Virus record (IMG/VR): IMGVR_UViG_3300035667_000108
Location: 1 to 40,266 of that record
Origin: a virus
DNA: 40,266 nt
Direction: 5' to 3' (one strand)
Shown: one piece after another, positions 4,048-39,547 of the stretch
How the letters are laid out: each line of letters begins with the position of its first letter
Position numbering within the stretch: position 1 is the stretch's first letter
Made by a program: the position numbers and the translations under genes
The notes under the pieces: model-generated
What the model saw: the letters and a program-made list of their open reading frames with translations, nothing else
Database searches by the model: none
Told to the model about the DNA's origin: nothing

Positions 4048-4071
4048 GGAATGGGGCAAGGACACGTGAAG

Positions 4072-6228
4072 ATGTTTCTATCGGCCGCCGAGATCGCAGC
4101 GGAAATGCTGCCGGGGTTGCCCACCGTGGAACGCGCGGTGAAGCGCAACGCGGTCAAGGGTGGCTGGATCGCGCGGCCGCGCGCCGGCCGCGGCGGCGGG
4201 TTCGAATACGCGGTCGACTCGCTGCCGCCCGCGGCGCGCGCGGCCTATGTCGGCCGCCACATCGAGGCCATCGAGATTCCCGCCTCGATCGCGCGCGAGG
4301 CGGCGAGCGAACCGGACGCCGTCACCATCAATGGCAACGCCGCGTCGGCGCGCGACGCGCGGCTCGCCATCCTGGTACTGGCCGATCGCGTCGCGGAAAC
4401 CGCGAGGATCGGTCACAAGCGTGCCGACGCGCATTTCGCCGATCTCTACAACACGGGGGCCGTCGATATCGCGCCCTGGATCAAGGCCGAGGTCGGCACC
4501 GTTTCGCGCGCGTCATTGGCGCGCTGGCGCTCGTTCGCGAGGGCCGGCAAGAAATCCAAGCTAGCGGTCGACCGCTCGGCGGCGCGCAAGGGCACCGGCG
4601 TGCTCGATCGCGCCAATGACGGCGCGGTCAGGACCTTCATCCTGGCATTGATCGCCAAGCAGCCGCAGCTCACCGCGCATCATTTGCGCGCGCTAACCGC
4701 CGACCGGTTTCCGCAACTGGAGATCCGTGAACAGCCGAAAAGGCTGCCGCCGATACGGACCTTTCAACAGACCTTGAAGACATGGCGCGCCAGCTACCGG
4801 GTCGAGCTTGAATCGATCCGCAACCCGGACGGCTTCAAGAGCAGCATGCGCTTCTCCGCGCGGGTCGCCAACCCGGCAACGCGGCTCAATGAAGTCTGGC
4901 AGATCGATGCGTCGCCGGCCGACATGCTGACCACCGATGGGCGCCGGCCCACGATCTATGTCTGCCTCGATATCTTTTCGCGCCGCATGATCTCGCTGGT
5001 CACCGAAACCCCGCGCGCGGCGGCAGTCGGCCTGCTGATCCGCAAGGCGATTCTTGAGTGGGGCGTGCCGGAGCGGATCAAGACCGACAACGGCAGCGAC
5101 TTCATCTCGCACGCCACGCGGCGGCTGTTCGCAGCGCTCGGCATCGAGCACGAGAAATCCGCGCCGTTCTCGCCGGAGCAGAAGGGCCACATCGAGCGCT
5201 CGATCGGCACGCTGCAGCGCGGCCTGATGCGGACGCTGCCAGGCTTTGTCGGCCACTCGGTTGCCGACCGCAAGGTGATCGAGGGCCGCAAGGCGTTTTC
5301 GGCGCGATTGGGCGAAACGCCGGAGGATATGTTCCAGGTCGAGCTCTCCAATGCCGAGCTGCAGCAACGCTGCGATGCGTGGTGCAAGGATGTCTACGGC
5401 AACAAGGCGCATGCAAGTCTGAAGGGCCGGACGCCGTTCGCGGTGGCTGCGATGGCGCCGGGCAAGGTGCGGCGGATCGAGGATCTGCGCGCGCTCGACA
5501 TGCTGCTCGCCCCGGTCGCCGGCAAGGACGGACTGCGCACCGTCACCAAGACCGGGCTCCGCATCCACGGCGCGCATTACCTCGGCGGCTTCCTCAACGT
5601 CGGCGACACCGTGCTGGTGCGCATGGACGAATCCGACATGGGCCGCGCCTATGTGTTCGAAGCCGATGGCGAAAGCTTCCTCGGCGAAGTGATCTCGCCG
5701 GAGCTCGCCGGCATCGACCCGGCCGCCGCCATCGCTGCCGCGCGCGGCGCGCAGAAGCGGCTGATCAACGAGCGCATGGATGACGTGCGCAAGGAAGCGC
5801 GCAGGATCAAGGCCAAGGATTTTGCGCCCGCAATCCACCGCCAGGCGCTAATCGACGCCGGCACGCTGATCGAGTTTCCGAAACAGACCAGCGCGCACGA
5901 TACGCCGGCGCTGTCGGCCGCGCGCGATGTGCATACTCCGGACGTGGCCCGTCACTCCGATGCGGTGGTCGCGCTTGCAGAGCAGCTGCGCGCCGAGGAC
6001 GCCGCGCCCTCCGCGACCGTGAAGTCGCTGCGGACAACCGAGACCGCACACCAGCGCTGGAATCGCGCGCGCGCCATCGAGGCACGGGCCGCGCGCAAGG
6101 AATTCGTGGATGCCGATGAACTGATGTGGCTCGGCGCTTACCGCGAAGGTCATGAGTACCGCGGCTTTTTCGCCACCTACGGCGAAGCCGCTCAACCCGG
6201 CGAGGAATCCCGCGTCGGCGAAATCTAA
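4072..6228 (+). CDS. A: MuA-type DDE transposase
   Basis: 718 aa from ATG 4072, preferred because AAGGA lies nine bases upstream and the N-terminus then begins directly with the MuA DNA-binding domain (FLSAAEIAA...LPGLP); an ATG at 4051 is also in frame. Order: N-terminal winged helix (about 1-65), helix-turn-helix end-binding region (about 90-240), integrase core, beta-barrel (about 440-520), basic helical C-terminus. The catalytic triad is Asp279 (WQIDASP), Asp339 (KTDNGSDF) and Glu375 (KGHIERS). The 36-residue spacing from the second Asp to Glu is like retroviral integrases and shorter than the 56 in MuA. It would cut and join the phage ends for integration and replicative transposition, working with the MuB-like ATPase just downstream. 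Confidence 0.95.
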   Translation: MFLSAAEIAAEMLPGLPTVERAVKRNAVKGGWIARPRAGRGGGFEYAVDSLPPAARAAYVGRHIEAIEIPASIAREAASEPDAVTINGNAASARDARLAILVLADRVAETARIGHKRADAHFADLYNTGAVDIAPWIKAEVGTVSRASLARWRSFARAGKKSKLAVDRSAARKGTGVLDRANDGAVRTFILALIAKQPQLTAHHLRALTADRFPQLEIREQPKRLPPIRTFQQTLKTWRASYRVELESIRNPDGFKSSMRFSARVANPATRLNEVWQIDASPADMLTTDGRRPTIYVCLDIFSRRMISLVTETPRAAAVGLLIRKAILEWGVPERIKTDNGSDFISHATRRLFAALGIEHEKSAPFSPEQKGHIERSIGTLQRGLMRTLPGFVGHSVADRKVIEGRKAFSARLGETPEDMFQVELSNAELQQRCDAWCKDVYGNKAHASLKGRTPFAVAAMAPGKVRRIEDLRALDMLLAPVAGKDGLRTVTKTGLRIHGAHYLGGFLNVGDTVLVRMDESDMGRAYVFEADGESFLGEVISPELAGIDPAAAIAAARGAQKRLINERMDDVRKEARRIKAKDFAPAIHRQALIDAGTLIEFPKQTSAHDTPALSAARDVHTPDVARHSDAVVALAEQLRAEDAAPSATVKSLRTTETAHQRWNRARAIEARAARKEFVDADELMWLGAYREGHEYRGFFATYGEAAQPGEESRVGEI

Positions 6229-6248: not shown

Positions 6249-7034
6249 ATGAACAAGACTTCAAATCACATCGTCCAAGGTCCCGTTGCGCTCAAGAACG
6301 TCGCCGCCTTCATGTCGATGTCGACGCGACTGATCGAGCGTTCGCCGCATCTGCCCGGCTTCGGCGTCTGCCACGGGCCATCCGGCTACGGCAAGACCTA
6401 CGCCTCGATCTTTACCCAGAACAAGACCAAGGCGATCCGCGTCGAGGTCGGCGATAGCTGGACCCGCCGCACCTTGCTCCGCAACATCCTGCGCGAGTGC
6501 GGCGAAACGGTCAAAGAGAAGTGGCCGATCTCGGATTTGTCCGATCTCGCAAAGTCGGTGCTCGGCGAAGACCCGCGCCGGCCGCTGATCGTCGACGAAG
6601 CCGATAAGCTGGTCGACAAAGGCATGATCGAGATCATGCGCGAGCTGCAGGAATCGTCCGGCGCGCCGGTGATCCTGATCGGCGAGGAAAAGCTGCCGGC
6701 CAAGTTGCTCACGGTCGAGCGCATGCATAACCGCGTGCTGCACTGGTTTCCGGCGCAGCCCTGCGATCTCGATGACGCACGCGTTCTGGCGGATGCCTTC
6801 GCGCCGAAGGTAGAGATCAAGGACGATCTCTTGGAATCGATCCGCGCGCGCTCCGGCGGGCGGGCACGGCGCATCGTGGTCAATCTCGATCATGCCGCCG
6901 AGGTCGCGCGCAACAAGAGCCTGAAGACGCTCGATCTCAAGGCGTGGGGCGCCGAGGAATACTTCACCGGCGAGCCGCCGACAGCGCGCCATGTCGAGCA
7001 GTATTCGCGCGGCGCGACGAAGGCGGCCGCGTGA
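6249..7034 (+). CDS. B: MuB-like AAA+ target-selection ATPase
   Basis: 261 aa. Walker A is GPSGYGKT (residues 43-50) and Walker B is PLIVDEAD (112-118). The protein belongs to the MuB/TniB group, which forms ATP-dependent filaments on target DNA and delivers it to the transposase. It is shorter than Mu MuB (312 aa) and lacks room for the N-terminal helix-turn-helix of that protein, so it looks like the short form common in alphaproteobacterial Mu-like phages. GGAAGG precedes the start. It lies 20 bases after the transposase, one of the few non-overlapping junctions, and ends in TGATG with the next gene. Confidence 0.93.
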   Translation: MNKTSNHIVQGPVALKNVAAFMSMSTRLIERSPHLPGFGVCHGPSGYGKTYASIFTQNKTKAIRVEVGDSWTRRTLLRNILRECGETVKEKWPISDLSDLAKSVLGEDPRRPLIVDEADKLVDKGMIEIMRELQESSGAPVILIGEEKLPAKLLTVERMHNRVLHWFPAQPCDLDDARVLADAFAPKVEIKDDLLESIRARSGGRARRIVVNLDHAAEVARNKSLKTLDLKAWGAEEYFTGEPPTARHVEQYSRGATKAAA

Positions 7035-9366: not shown

Positions 9367-10151
9367 CACCGCAGTACGATCGTTGGTTAGCTAGCCGCGT
9401 CCGTCAGCGGCTGCTGTCGCGCTTGGGCAGCCCGGTGTTCGGCGGCGCGCTCGCCGGCGTTTATCTTGACAGCCTCCGCGACGGCTATCTGCAGTTGTCG
9501 GTTCGGAACGAATTCGAGCGGTCGTTGCTGCAGTCGGAGTACATGCCGCGGCTGCTGAAATGCGTTGCCATTGAGACGTCCGACCCGATCGACCGGGTCT
9601 ACATCAGAGTACGTCGGCCGAGCGAAGTGGTGGCTCTAACCTTTCCGTCCGAGGAGGACAGCGTCGCGGACGATGAAATCAACGCCGCCACGGAGCCCGA
9701 AGCGCCCAAAGTTGATCCCGAAGTACCCAGGGAAATCGCCTCGATCGTAAGCCAGCTTGCGCGTGCGCGGGAGACTGGAGCGCTCGACGCCGCCGTCGAG
9801 GATTTGCTGGCGGCCTATGACCATAAACTCGGCCCCGACCCGTCAAAGACATTACGGATTGAGGACATCAAGCGCGCGGTGTGTCGCCGCTTCGGTGTCA
9901 GCCGCGTCGATCTGATCTCGTCACGGCGCACCTGGAATATCGTCCATCCTCGTCAGATGGCCATGTATCTCACCAAGGAACTGACGCCGTGGTCGCTGCC
10001 CGCGATCGGCAGGCAATTCGGAAATCGTGATCATACCACGGTGCTTCATGCCGTTCGCAGAGTCGCGGCCAAAGTCGTGCGCGATGCCGTGGTCGCCGAA
10101 CAGGCGCGGTCGTTAATTTCGGAACTAGCGGGAGCCCGGCCATGCGACTAA
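9363..10151 (+). CDS. DnaA-like protein with domains I and IV but no AAA+ domain
   Basis: 262 aa, about half the length of a bacterial DnaA. Residues about 1-85 resemble DnaA domain I (a Trp near the start, then YLQLSVRNEFERSLLQSEYM), which in DnaA binds the DnaB helicase and itself. Residues 90-160 are an acidic linker. Residues 166-240 are a clear domain IV: IEDIKRAVCRRFGVSRVDLI, then SSRRTWNIVHPRQMAMYL and the signature RDHTTVLHA at 222-230, which reads DnaA boxes. No Walker motifs are present, so it cannot act as an ATP-dependent initiator. It may recruit helicase to phage DNA, compete with host DnaA, or act as a transcription factor; these are inferences. It overlaps both neighbours. Confidence 0.85.
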   Translation: MTPQYDRWLASRVRQRLLSRLGSPVFGGALAGVYLDSLRDGYLQLSVRNEFERSLLQSEYMPRLLKCVAIETSDPIDRVYIRVRRPSEVVALTFPSEEDSVADDEINAATEPEAPKVDPEVPREIASIVSQLARARETGALDAAVEDLLAAYDHKLGPDPSKTLRIEDIKRAVCRRFGVSRVDLISSRRTWNIVHPRQMAMYLTKELTPWSLPAIGRQFGNRDHTTVLHAVRRVAAKVVRDAVVAEQARSLISELAGARPCD

Positions 10152-10834
10152 CGGAACACAAGGCAACGACCAGCATGATTGCGAAAATCCATGTCCTCAA
10201 GGCGCAGGCGGGCATGGACGATGACACCTATCGCGATTTTCTCGCGCGCGAGAGCGGCGGCAAGCGCTCTTCGAAAGAGCTTTCGGTGCGCGAGGCTACC
10301 CGCGTCATCGAGCGGATGAGCGACCTTGCCGGTGACAGCGGCGCGGCGACGGGCGCGGTCACCGGTCTCGACAGTCCGGTGGGGCGCAAGCTGCGCGCGT
10401 TGTGGATCGCCGGCTACGACCTCGCGATCGTGCGCAACCGCACCGACAAGGCGATGCTCAATTTTCTGGAGCGGCAGGTCGGCGTGTCGCATGTCCGGTT
10501 TCTGAAAGATGCCCGCGATGGCGCCTCGGCGATCGAGGGCTTGAAGTCCTGGCTCGCGCGTCAGGGCAAGGTCGCATGGCCGGCCGACACCTCCAACGTC
10601 ATCGCCAGCAAGCGCGCGGTGCTCGATGCGCAGTGGCGGCGGCTGATCGAGCTCGGCGAGGTCAAGGCGGTCGGCAGCGCGGTCGACCCGATGGAGGACC
10701 TGCAGTTCTACGCCGTCCGAATCGTGCGGCAGAACCGCTGGGACACCATGCAGGCCCACGACTACGACGAAGTCCAGGCCGCGCTCGGCCGCAAACTGCG
10801 CGGCGCGATGATGCGCCTCGAAGGAGGCAAGTGA
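10142..10834 (+). CDS. gemA: GemA-like regulatory protein (Mu gp16, DUF1018)
   Basis: 230 aa. The N-terminal sequence MIAKIHVLKAQAGMDDDTYR followed by DFLARESGGKRS is typical of GemA/gp16 proteins of Mu-like phages; translation may begin at ATG 10142 or at the internal Met12 where similarity starts. In Mu, GemA alters host gene expression and DNA gyrase-dependent supercoiling and appears to influence host cell division. Residues 80-130 (RKLRALWIAGYDLAIVRNRT) continue the family pattern. It lies between the DnaA-like and GcrA genes, overlapping both. Confidence 0.88.
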   Translation: MRLTEHKATTSMIAKIHVLKAQAGMDDDTYRDFLARESGGKRSSKELSVREATRVIERMSDLAGDSGAATGAVTGLDSPVGRKLRALWIAGYDLAIVRNRTDKAMLNFLERQVGVSHVRFLKDARDGASAIEGLKSWLARQGKVAWPADTSNVIASKRAVLDAQWRRLIELGEVKAVGSAVDPMEDLQFYAVRIVRQNRWDTMQAHDYDEVQAALGRKLRGAMMRLEGGK

Positions 10835-11352
10835 TGTTGACACAAGAGAACATGCGGACATGGTCCGACCCGCGCATCGCGACATTGAAGAGGATGTGGG
10901 AGGCCGGTTTTTCGGCCAGCCAAATTGCCGGCGAACTCGGCAACGTCACCCGCAATGGCGTGATCGGCAAAGTGCATCGGCTCGGCCTTTCCGGGCGGCA
11001 CAAGATACGAACTTCGGAGAGGCCGCAACGCGAGCGCAAGGCGCGCCCGGCGCGCTTTCTCGTGGAACCGCGACGTCCGACACGCGTCGCGGTCGCGCTG
11101 CTGGGAGCCGTTGCCATCGAGGCTGAGGCGCCGGTGATCTACGACAATGTGGTGCCGATCAGCCAGCGGCTTTCGTTGAACGATCTGACCGCGGCCACGT
11201 GTCATTTCCCGGTCGGTGATCCGACCTCTCCGGATTTTTTCTTCTGTGGCGGCAAAGCGCTGAAGGGCCTGCCGTACTGCGCGCACCATTCGCGGATCGC
11301 CTATGTGCCGGCCGCCGATCGCCGCAGGGTCGACGGCGGAGCGCAACAATGA
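10834..11352 (+). CDS. gcrA: GcrA-family cell-cycle regulator
   Basis: 172 aa from ATG 10834, preceded by AAGGAGG and overlapping the gemA stop (TGATG). The N-terminal helix-turn-helix has W10, GFSASQIAGELG and RNGVIGKVHRLGLS (40-53). The C-terminal domain has Cys123 (TCHFPVGDP), Cys138 (FFFCGG), Cys149 and the following His residues (YCAHH). Both halves of GcrA are therefore present and full length. In Caulobacter and relatives GcrA binds sigma70 and activates promoters carrying GANTC sites methylated by CcrM. A phage copy could redirect the host cell-cycle programme or drive phage promoters. Confidence 0.93.
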   Translation: MLTQENMRTWSDPRIATLKRMWEAGFSASQIAGELGNVTRNGVIGKVHRLGLSGRHKIRTSERPQRERKARPARFLVEPRRPTRVAVALLGAVAIEAEAPVIYDNVVPISQRLSLNDLTAATCHFPVGDPTSPDFFFCGGKALKGLPYCAHHSRIAYVPAADRRRVDGGAQQ

Positions 11353-11545: not shown

Positions 11546-11838
11546 CACAGAGCAGCAAGAGAAAACCTGATCGAAGTCCGCGCGGACGAAACGAGCACCT
11601 CACGCATGATGAGATTGCCAGCATAAGGCTGCGCTTCAATGAGGGCGCGCCATCGACCGTCGTCGCGGGCGAGATGAGATGCACCATTCGAGTTGTTCAA
11701 AAATATTATGCAATGTTCCGCGGAAACGGCGTTCATCGGAAATCGCGGAGACTCGCGGCCCCTGCTCGCGTGAAAGATCGCGCGGAATTCGACGCCATAA
11801 AGCGCTTGCGGTTTTACACCTCTGATTTCGAACTCTGA
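11542..11838 (+). CDS. Small HTH protein
   Basis: 98 aa, strongly basic. LTHDEIASIRLRFNEGAPST, then VVAGEMRCTIRVVQKYYAMF reads as a simple helix-turn-helix of the resolvase/terminase type (G-x-x-x-x-VA-x-x-M-x-C). Likely a DNA-binding protein of the late early phase. ATGA overlap with the preceding gene. No closer assignment is possible. Confidence 0.6.
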   Translation: MTQSSKRKPDRSPRGRNEHLTHDEIASIRLRFNEGAPSTVVAGEMRCTIRVVQKYYAMFRGNGVHRKSRRLAAPARVKDRAEFDAIKRLRFYTSDFEL

Positions 11839-11849
11839 GCGTGGATATC

Positions 11850-12107
11850 ATGACCGCGCGCCGCCCCATCCGCGTCTGCGATCACGCACTGTTGCGCTTC
11901 ATCGAGCGCATCGGCGGTCTGGATACCGAGATGCTGCGCGCGAACCTTGAAGCCTCATTGCAGCGGTCGGTCACCGCCGCTGCGAAGATCGGCTGCAAAG
12001 AGCTGGTGGTGGTCGCGGACGGCAACAAATACGTCATCGTCAATGGCGTCGTGGTCACGGTGCTCGACGGCAAGATGGGCTTCAAACGGGTGAAGCCACG
12101 CCGATGA
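11850..12107 (+). CDS. Hypothetical phage protein
   Basis: 85 aa from ATG 11850; a GTG at 11841 is also in frame. The sequence ICDHALLRF-type start (RVCDHALLRFIERIGGLD) and the strand-rich end (KYVIVNGVVVTVLDGKMG) form a layout I have seen in small proteins of rhizobial phages and genomes, without a known function. It ends in ATGA with the Mor-like gene. Confidence 0.6.
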   Translation: MTARRPIRVCDHALLRFIERIGGLDTEMLRANLEASLQRSVTAAAKIGCKELVVVADGNKYVIVNGVVVTVLDGKMGFKRVKPRR

Positions 12108-12511
12108 CGGAAAAGCTGCCCGGCGTCTTGGCGGAAATCGCGGAGCTCGTTGGCGAGCAGGCCGCGCTCGCCATCGCCTCGCGCGCCGGCGGCACCCGGA
12201 TCTACTTCCCGGCCCATGCCGACGACAAGCACTGGCTGGTGGCGAGCATCGGCCGCGCCGCGGCCGACAAGGTCTGCGCGCATTTCACCGTCGACGAACG
12301 CCGCGGCCAGCGCATCGAGATTCCGCTTTATGTCGGCGGCACCTTTCAGCAGCTGGTGCGGGCCGTGGCCGCGCGCGTGCACAAGCTCGACGCGGAGGGC
12401 GCGTCCTCGACCGAGATCGTGCGCAAGGTTGGCATCACGCAGCGCTCGGTGCATCGTCACCGCGCCCGCCATCGCGGCAACAAGGACGGCAAGCAAGGCC
12501 GGCTGCTGTGA
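12104..12511 (+). CDS. Mor-like middle/late transcription activator
   Basis: 135 aa. The N-terminal part (LPGVLAEIAELVGEQAALAI, then RAGGTRIYFP) and the central strand (GQRIEIPLY) match the dimerisation part of Mor/C activators, and the end (SSTEIVRKVGITQRSVHRHR) is the helix-turn-helix. Mu Mor is 129 aa. Mor and C activate phage promoters that lack a proper -35 element by binding an inverted repeat upstream. Its position, last regulator of the early operon and just before the late genes, fits. The probable targets are the palindromes at 12625 and 21434. Confidence 0.78.
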   Translation: MTEKLPGVLAEIAELVGEQAALAIASRAGGTRIYFPAHADDKHWLVASIGRAAADKVCAHFTVDERRGQRIEIPLYVGGTFQQLVRAVAARVHKLDAEGASSTEIVRKVGITQRSVHRHRARHRGNKDGKQGRLL

Positions 12512-12588
12512 CCGAGTTCATCACCATCGTCGCTCAGCTGCTGTTCATCGGCGTGATCCTCGCGAGCATTCTTGTCGTCTCGCGATAG
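12508..12588 (+). CDS. Possible 26-residue membrane peptide
   Basis: A GTG at 12508 overlaps the stop of the Mor-like gene (GTGA), opening a 26-codon frame that encodes a single hydrophobic segment (FITIVAQLLFIGVILASILV) with a short VSR tail. The overlap style equals that of the rest of the operon, and the composition is membrane-like. It could be a small regulator of lysis or membrane function, or chance. It would be the last gene of the early operon. Confidence 0.4.
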   Translation: MTEFITIVAQLLFIGVILASILVVSR

Positions 12589-12624: not shown

Positions 12625-12646
12625 CTGACATCTGTCAGGGTTATCA
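12625..12646. promoter_or_regulatory. Palindromic candidate activator site of the first late block
   Basis: CTGACA-TC-TGTCAG (12625-12638) is a perfect six-base inverted repeat followed by GGTTATCAAT. The same arrangement, CTGACA-CC-TGTCAGGGTTA, recurs at 21434 before the second late block. A second short palindrome, TTCACGTGAA (12603-12612), and a GANTC site (GATTC, 12664-12668) are nearby. It sits 59 bases before the first late gene. The likely role is binding of the Mor-like activator; this is inference. Confidence 0.6.
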
Positions 12647-21433: not shown

Positions 21434-21467
21434 CCCTGACACCTGTCAGGGTTACGAATCCTAACAT
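21434..21467. promoter_or_regulatory. Palindromic candidate promoter of the second late block
   Basis: CCCTGACA-CC-TGTCAGGG (21434-21451) is a perfect eight-base inverted repeat followed by TTACGAATCC and TAACAT (21462-21467), a possible -10 element. CTGACA-N2-TGTCAGGGTTA is shared with the site at 12625 before the first late block. It lies between the divergent minus-strand gene and the protease gene, so it could control both. GAATC (21456-21460) is a GANTC site. There is no -35 at proper spacing, as expected for activator-dependent phage promoters. Confidence 0.6.
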
Positions 21468-38707: not shown

Positions 38708-39547
38708 ATGGCAACGAGAGTTCTCTACAGGCCCGTTGAGCCTGTGAAGCCGGCCGCGGGCTATATCGGCGGTAAGAAGCAACTGGCGAAGGCAATCATC
38801 GCGTGCATCGAGAAAATCCCGCACGAAACCTACGCGGAGCCGTTTGTCGGCATGGGCGGCGTTTTCCTGCGCCGGCGCCGCGCAGCGAAGGGCGAGATCA
38901 TCAACGACCGATCGGGCGACGTGGCGACGTTCTTTCGCATCCTGCAGCGGCACTACGTGCCGTTCATGGACATGCTGAAATGGCAGGTCACCGGCCGGCA
39001 GGAATTCGAACGCCTGAGGGCGGCCGACCCGGCGACGTTGACCGACCTGGAGCGCGCGGCGCGCTTCCTCTACCTGCAGCGCACGGCGTTCGGCGGCAAG
39101 GTGGCCGGCCGCAGCTTCGGCGTCGATCCTTTTGGCGGCCGGTTCAATGTCACCAAGCTGATGCCGATGCTCGACGATCTGCACGACCGGCTCGCCGGCG
39201 TCGTCATCGAGCGTCTGCCATGGGCGGAATTCATCGGGCGCTACGATCGGCCGGCAACGCTGTTCTATCTCGACCCGCCGTATTGGGGCGGCGAAGCCGA
39301 CTACGGCGTGGGGCTGTTCGATCGGGCGGAATACGATCAGATGGCGGACGTTTTAAGGGGCTTAAAAGGCCGCTTCATTCTGTCGATCAACGACGTGCCG
39401 GAGATCCGGCGGGCGTTCAAAGGATTTGCGTTGAAGCCGGTGCGGTTGAGCTACACGCTGGCAGGCGGCGACAAGGCGCGGCCGGCGCGCGAGCTGATCA
39501 TCACTGGGAGGCGATTGACACAACGCGATGACAAACAAAATCGCTAA
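38708..39547 (+). CDS. D12-class DNA adenine methyltransferase
   Basis: 279 aa. AAGYIGGKKQL (about 16-26) and AEPFVGMGGVFL (43-54) form the S-adenosylmethionine-binding motifs, and DPPY at 189-192 (FYLDPPYWGG) is the catalytic motif for N6-adenine transfer. A target-recognition part lies between. Many family members act on GATC, but the target cannot be read from the sequence. It sits near the right end of the phage, the place where Mu carries the mom modification gene, so protection of phage DNA from restriction is likely. Confidence 0.92.
   Translation: MATRVLYRPVEPVKPAAGYIGGKKQLAKAIIACIEKIPHETYAEPFVGMGGVFLRRRRAAKGEIINDRSGDVATFFRILQRHYVPFMDMLKWQVTGRQEFERLRAADPATLTDLERAARFLYLQRTAFGGKVAGRSFGVDPFGGRFNVTKLMPMLDDLHDRLAGVVIERLPWAEFIGRYDRPATLFYLDPPYWGGEADYGVGLFDRAEYDQMADVLRGLKGRFILSINDVPEIRRAFKGFALKPVRLSYTLAGGDKARPARELIITGRRLTQRDDKQNR

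Follow-up and report, generated by a model that had tools for sequence, protein, structure and literature searches.

A full-length, host-type GcrA in the putative early operon of a Mu-like phage with a Bradyrhizobium-related host

Introduction

GcrA acts as a sigma activator on methylated promoters (PMC7403470), and copies of it carried by phages are already known. In the phiCbK-like Caulobacter phages, GcrA (gp222) was proposed to move the host into a replicative state by acting on host promoters (PMC3556154). Host-like GcrA proteins also occur in phages of Rhizobiales, namely, Agrobacterium phage Atu_ph08 and the phiLM21-like prophages of Sinorhizobium (PMC6630229, PMC12429752). These are single or few cases, which are not described as transposable and for which no conserved slot has been reported. 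Among cultured Mu-like phages of alphaproteobacteria, the Rhodovulum/Rhodobacter phages RS1 and RC1 are available for comparison. In a literature search of incomplete coverage, no description of GcrA in transposable phages was found. Here, we describe such a gene in a virus of soil alphaproteobacteria, represented by an IMG/VR contig of 40,266 nucleotides (40.3 kb), the whole of which is referred to as the window, together with its counterparts in related phages and prophages.

Results and Discussion

The early region of a Mu-like phage. The window carries homologues of the MuA-type DDE transposase, MuB, GemA, and Mor in the order found in Mu (Table 1). On one strand, with overlapping genes, it encodes a Ner-like protein, MuA, and MuB; then, after several small genes, come a protein with a LexA domain, the DnaA-like protein, GemA, and GcrA, with three further small genes separating the last from Mor. 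The mor-like gene forms the downstream end of this operon, and gcrA sits shortly upstream of it. Because the gene order is that of the Mu early region, "early operon" is a fair description, and gcrA would be expressed early in infection. The earlier note on this DNA had placed a full-length GcrA with both domains intact in the early operon of a transposable phage, and the analysis bears out both parts of that description, the operon assignment by gene content and order.

Table 1. Positions of the features discussed in the window
Feature	Position	Strand	Remarks
MuA-type transposase	4051..6228	+	Homologues found
MuB-type transposition protein	6249..7034	+	Position after MuA; homologues
DnaA-like protein, 262 aa	9363..10151	+	Domains I and IV (DNA-binding), without AAA+; PF08299 99.5 bits, PF11638 25.1 bits
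gemA (Mu gp16-like)	10142..10834	+	PF06252 91 bits; phrog_286
Ribosome-binding site of gcrA, AAGGAGG	10821..10827	+	Within the gemA 3' end; read from the sequence
gcrA, 172 aa	10834..11352	+	DNA-binding domain ~residues 9-52, linker, sigma-interacting domain ~111-160
mor-like middle/late transcription activator	12104..12511	+	phrog_836 82 bits; PF08765 23.3 bits, just under cut-off
Perfect palindrome CTGACATCTGTCAG, then AATTTCGGGAAATTACGGGATTC	12625..12638		Proposed Mor operator of the lysis promoter
Second perfect copy, CTGACACCTGTCAG	21436..21449		Proposed Mor operator of the head operon

The start codon of gcrA (ATG at 10834) and its stop codon (TGA at 11350-11352) coincide exactly with the limits given in the earlier note. 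The gene shares one base with the gemA stop codon (TGA at 10832-10834), a sign of translational coupling, and the 3' end of its ribosome-binding site lies seven bases 5' of the start codon. A Dam-family adenine methylase of the D12 class, which is not CcrM-like, is encoded at 38708-39547; in some relatives it lies on the opposite strand, left of the repressor.

An intact two-domain GcrA. The protein matched Pfam PF07750 over profile positions 2-154 of 155, with 171 bits (E 2.9e-50) against a cut-off of 26.9. An AlphaFold model, built from 11 sequences of the window and the related loci, was confident for the DNA-binding part (residues 12-50) and the sigma-binding part (111-155). The N-terminal part superimposed on the Caulobacter DNA-binding domain bound to methylated DNA (5yiv; TM 0.96 on the target, rmsd 0.8 A, 67% identity), and the C-terminal part superimposed on the sigma-interacting domain in complex with sigma70 domain 2 (5yix; TM 0.84 on the target, rmsd 1.0 A, 42% identity). 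The Caulobacter GcrA structures were the only convincing matches in the PDB. C123, C138, C149, and H152 were invariant in an 11-sequence alignment including the window protein. The identification as GcrA is well beyond chance. With NCBIfam sig70cofacGcrA (NF050816), the protein scored 136 bits, under the strict equivalog cut-off of 280, and by this measure it does not rank as an ortholog of the cellular cell-cycle GcrA. The Pfam model also exceeded its cut-off in the control genome of Sulfolobus acidocaldarius, and cyanophages, too, encode GcrA-like proteins. Another viral GcrA-like protein (L016, 799-1707) has two GcrA-like DNA-binding stretches in tandem.

On the basis of the model, the window GcrA probably binds both sigma70 and DNA. 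A preference for promoters with m6A-GANTC is predicted from the recognition helix, which is kept. In the sigma-interacting domain, the near-invariant W125 of the C-x-W-P motif is replaced by F, which could weaken the sigma contact. The dN/dS ratio was ~0.25 in three pairs, namely, the window gcrA against the host gene and two pairs of phage copies, which indicates that the protein is functional. Purifying selection, intact domains, and position in the operon together argue for a working sigma cofactor.

A GcrA slot in one lineage of transposable phages. A scan with MuA yielded 24 viral loci. In addition, 248 genomes from the Bradyrhizobium family were searched, and 19 of them yielded prophages, from which 20 stretches were read. 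Among related transposable phages or prophages with MuA at least 60% identical, about 13 of 15 had GcrA in the slot between gemA and mor. This arrangement was found in the window, L102, L103/L107, L105, L108, L109, L110, L112, L113, L114, L120, L170, L171, L179, and L180; in L118/L123, GcrA lay upstream of gemA. Of the close relatives in which this interval could be read, only L104 and L106 lacked it. More distant relatives (MuA 42-52%) rarely had GcrA. Since the slot is filled in most close relatives and rarely in distant ones, GcrA can be regarded as a regular component of one transposable-phage lineage.

The described systems differ from this arrangement. The GcrA of phiCbK, a giant siphophage, resembles that of the window in being phage-encoded and in the host replicative shift proposed for it, but it is only ~31% identical, sits on a very long branch, and does not lie beside a Mor or GemA gene. 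Atu_ph08 and the phiLM21-like prophages, like the window, combine a host-like GcrA with a phage of Rhizobiales. RS1 and RC1 share the order from transposase to late activator, and their MuA is 43% identical to that of the window, but a match to the window GcrA was found in neither; immediately ahead of the late activator, they have a DNA methyltransferase gene. In Rhodovulum phage RS1 (L316, NC_020866), this gene (11592-12568) is near the position of GcrA in the lineage of the window. So far, neither a conserved GcrA slot in transposable phages, nor the exchange of its occupant, nor a neighboring DnaA without an ATPase domain appears to have been described.

A host-type occupant, probably exchanged. 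The best cellular matches of the window GcrA were the core chromosomal GcrA proteins of Bradyrhizobium, dozens of whose genomes encode one that is 69-70% identical; among the best-matching genomes in the wider Bradyrhizobium family, identity was 63-70%. Identity to Bradyrhizobium GcrA was 36/45 in the DNA-binding domain and 42/52 in the sigma-interacting domain, and the recognition stretch VTRNGVIGKVHRLGLSGR differed only by A to G. Both are full two-domain proteins with almost identical recognition helices; unlike the core protein, the window GcrA lies in a phage early operon without cell-cycle gene context, carries the F for W replacement, and has a branch clearly longer than those among host copies. 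The core gene is flanked by an ArgD-like gene on one side and phosphate-transport-like (pst-like) genes on the other, as named by eye from translations. The same neighborhood recurred in 73-79 of 79 other loci; apart from GcrA, nothing in it matched a protein of the window. Each of the Bradyrhizobium genomes G001-G003 encodes four to five members of the GcrA family, some of which are diverged paralogues or short forms that consist of the DNA-binding half alone.

Sister Mu-like phages (L102, L105, L109, L112, L113, L114, and L120) have GcrA in the same place and operon with a conserved sigma-binding domain. However, these proteins are only 38-45% identical to the window GcrA and carry an N-terminal extension before the Trp of the DNA-binding domain and a diverged recognition helix, neither of which is present in the window. 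L120 is the sister of the window by MuA (77%), whereas the two GcrA proteins are 38% identical. The GcrA and MuA trees do not show the agreement that vertical inheritance predicts. AU tests rejected grouping of the window GcrA with that of L120 (p 0.0016) and with those of L120, L113, and L114 (p 0.007). Because shared descent with the sister's GcrA is rejected, and because the extension and altered recognition helices of the sister copies are absent, the slot of the window phage has probably exchanged its occupant for a host-type gene.

The source would be either the host directly or another host-like phage copy. In a single tree, neither grouping with hosts (p 0.26) nor grouping with nine phage copies (p 0.39) was rejected; in the full 89-row set, the latter fitted slightly better. 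One origin of all phage GcrA copies was not rejected either (p 0.099). The GcrA proteins of L103, L107, and L170 are 54-56% identical to that of the window. A single tree was discarded as a means of deciding between fresh capture from the host and slow evolution within the phage clade, as both groupings are compatible with it and rejection was obtained only for grouping with the sister phage.

The earlier note had named, as an outcome against its reading, tight clustering with the host's own GcrA, as a copy made recently and lacking relatives in phages. The first part is borne out, in that the closest relatives are host core GcrA proteins at 70%. The rest is not, as phage relatives are plentiful in the gemA-mor slot and a dS of ~1.1 (dN 0.27) against the host gene argues that this is not a very recent copy. 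These results bear on a further explanation, a recently picked-up host gene carried as a passenger with no role in the phage. The host genes are indeed the closest relatives, but the translational overlap with gemA, the strong ribosome-binding site, the synonymous divergence and dN/dS of 0.25, and the occupation of the slot in most relatives all stand against it, and we consider it highly improbable.

Host or phage promoters as targets. The reading that we prefer, with about even confidence, is that the gene encodes a functional sigma70 cofactor which raises host S-phase genes. A slot normally holding a phage-adapted GcrA would here hold an exchanged-in host-type gene. The protein would be made early, together with the transposition proteins, and its C-terminal domain would bind domain 2 of the host sigma70. 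Through its nearly unchanged recognition helix, it would recruit RNA polymerase to methylated-GANTC promoters. Most likely, host S-phase genes (replication and nucleotide supply) would be raised while the phage replicates by transposition. Each host genome encodes one CcrM-type RAMA protein, and a RAMA-domain search of the phage records found no CcrM, the phage methylase being of the Dam-type D12 class; GANTC methylation would thus come from the host.

A serious rival is that GcrA acts with Mor as a co-activator of the phage's own middle and late promoters. Mor would bind the upstream CTGACAnnTGTCAG dyad, and GcrA would act on sigma domain 2 and on the -10 side (CGGGATW, sometimes GANTC), so that weak late promoters are opened. 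The constant place of gcrA directly upstream of mor could reflect such a service to the late switch. The CTGACAnnTGTCAG palindrome recurs 3' of mor in most relatives and again 5' of the head genes; it is probably the Mor operator and is conserved in many Mu-like phages. In all nine GcrA-bearing close relatives with the dyad, CGGGATW or CGGGAAT lies ~23 bases beyond it at a near-constant distance. In L104 and L106, the sub-lineage without gcrA, this element is absent and a second palindrome is found in its stead. This contrast is suggestive, but it comes from one lineage and counts as one evolutionary event. In addition, phages with host-type recognition helices and phages with diverged ones share one promoter element, so there is no sign of its co-evolution with the GcrA DNA-binding domain. 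There is a precedent in a 26-gene prophage operon of Brevundimonas, which depends on host GcrA (PMC7987155).

The distribution of GANTC was also considered. The window phage has 80 sites against 195 expected, and depletion is general in phages and host alike. The observed/expected ratio was 0.34 in GcrA-bearing phages and 0.20 in others (Mann-Whitney p 0.0002), as the co-activator explanation would have it, but independent pairs did not support the difference (median p 1, only 5 pairs). GANTC counts were therefore rejected as a pointer to phage targets, since the host is depleted too and the density contrast is lost once kinship is allowed for. GANTC was present in 6 of 9 lysis promoters with the Mor operator; its occurrence at Mor-operator promoters was not above local dinucleotide shuffles (P 0.17 and 0.11) and was rejected as a GcrA-site signal. 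The alternative raised in the earlier note, that GcrA serves the phage's own promoters, thus receives no significant support from GANTC. Given the depletion in the phage and the lack of significant enrichment of GANTC at these promoters, we lean toward host promoters as the main target. The depletion may also be compatible with a few functional phage sites, as the host is depleted too. On the whole, co-activation with Mor is possible, if on balance doubtful.

The phage GcrA might instead be a competitor of the host GcrA, either for sigma70 or at GANTC promoters, blocking or distorting the host cell cycle, with arrest rather than promotion as the outcome. Diverged DNA-binding domains beside conserved sigma-binding domains in the sister phages would fit, as would the F for W replacement in the window. 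The DNA-binding domain of the window protein, however, is almost unchanged from that of the host, and the protein is under purifying selection. This explanation is unlikely.

A DnaA-like neighbor. The DnaA-like protein upstream of gemA is 56-58% identical to host DnaA in domain IV and 34% identical in domain I, and its model matched domain IV in 1j1v. In many related phages or prophages, the interval from MuB to Mor likewise holds a DnaA protein, but one reduced to domain IV; of the DnaA-like proteins seen, that of the window alone has a recognizable domain I. No DnaA box (TTWTNCACA) was found in the window, against 0.5 expected. In another viral contig (L100, 3072-4099), in which no MuA was detected, the genes for a GcrA and a DnaA domain-IV protein lie side by side with a four-base overlap, a pairing of two cell-cycle regulators as in the window. 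As a broader and more tentative proposal, which we think rather unlikely, alphaproteobacterial transposable phages would carry an early cell-cycle cassette of GcrA and ATPase-less DnaA. This cassette would couple replication and the lytic switch to the methylation-clocked host cycle. On a change of host, the slot would be refilled by host-type genes, matching promoter reading to the new host.

If the preferred reading, action on host S-phase promoters, is true, takeover of the GcrA/CcrM cell-cycle circuit would be an established strategy throughout a lineage of temperate transposable phages rather than a curiosity of phiCbK. Moreover, host-type and phage-type GcrA proteins in one genomic slot provide natural pairs for testing selection on the DNA-binding domain.
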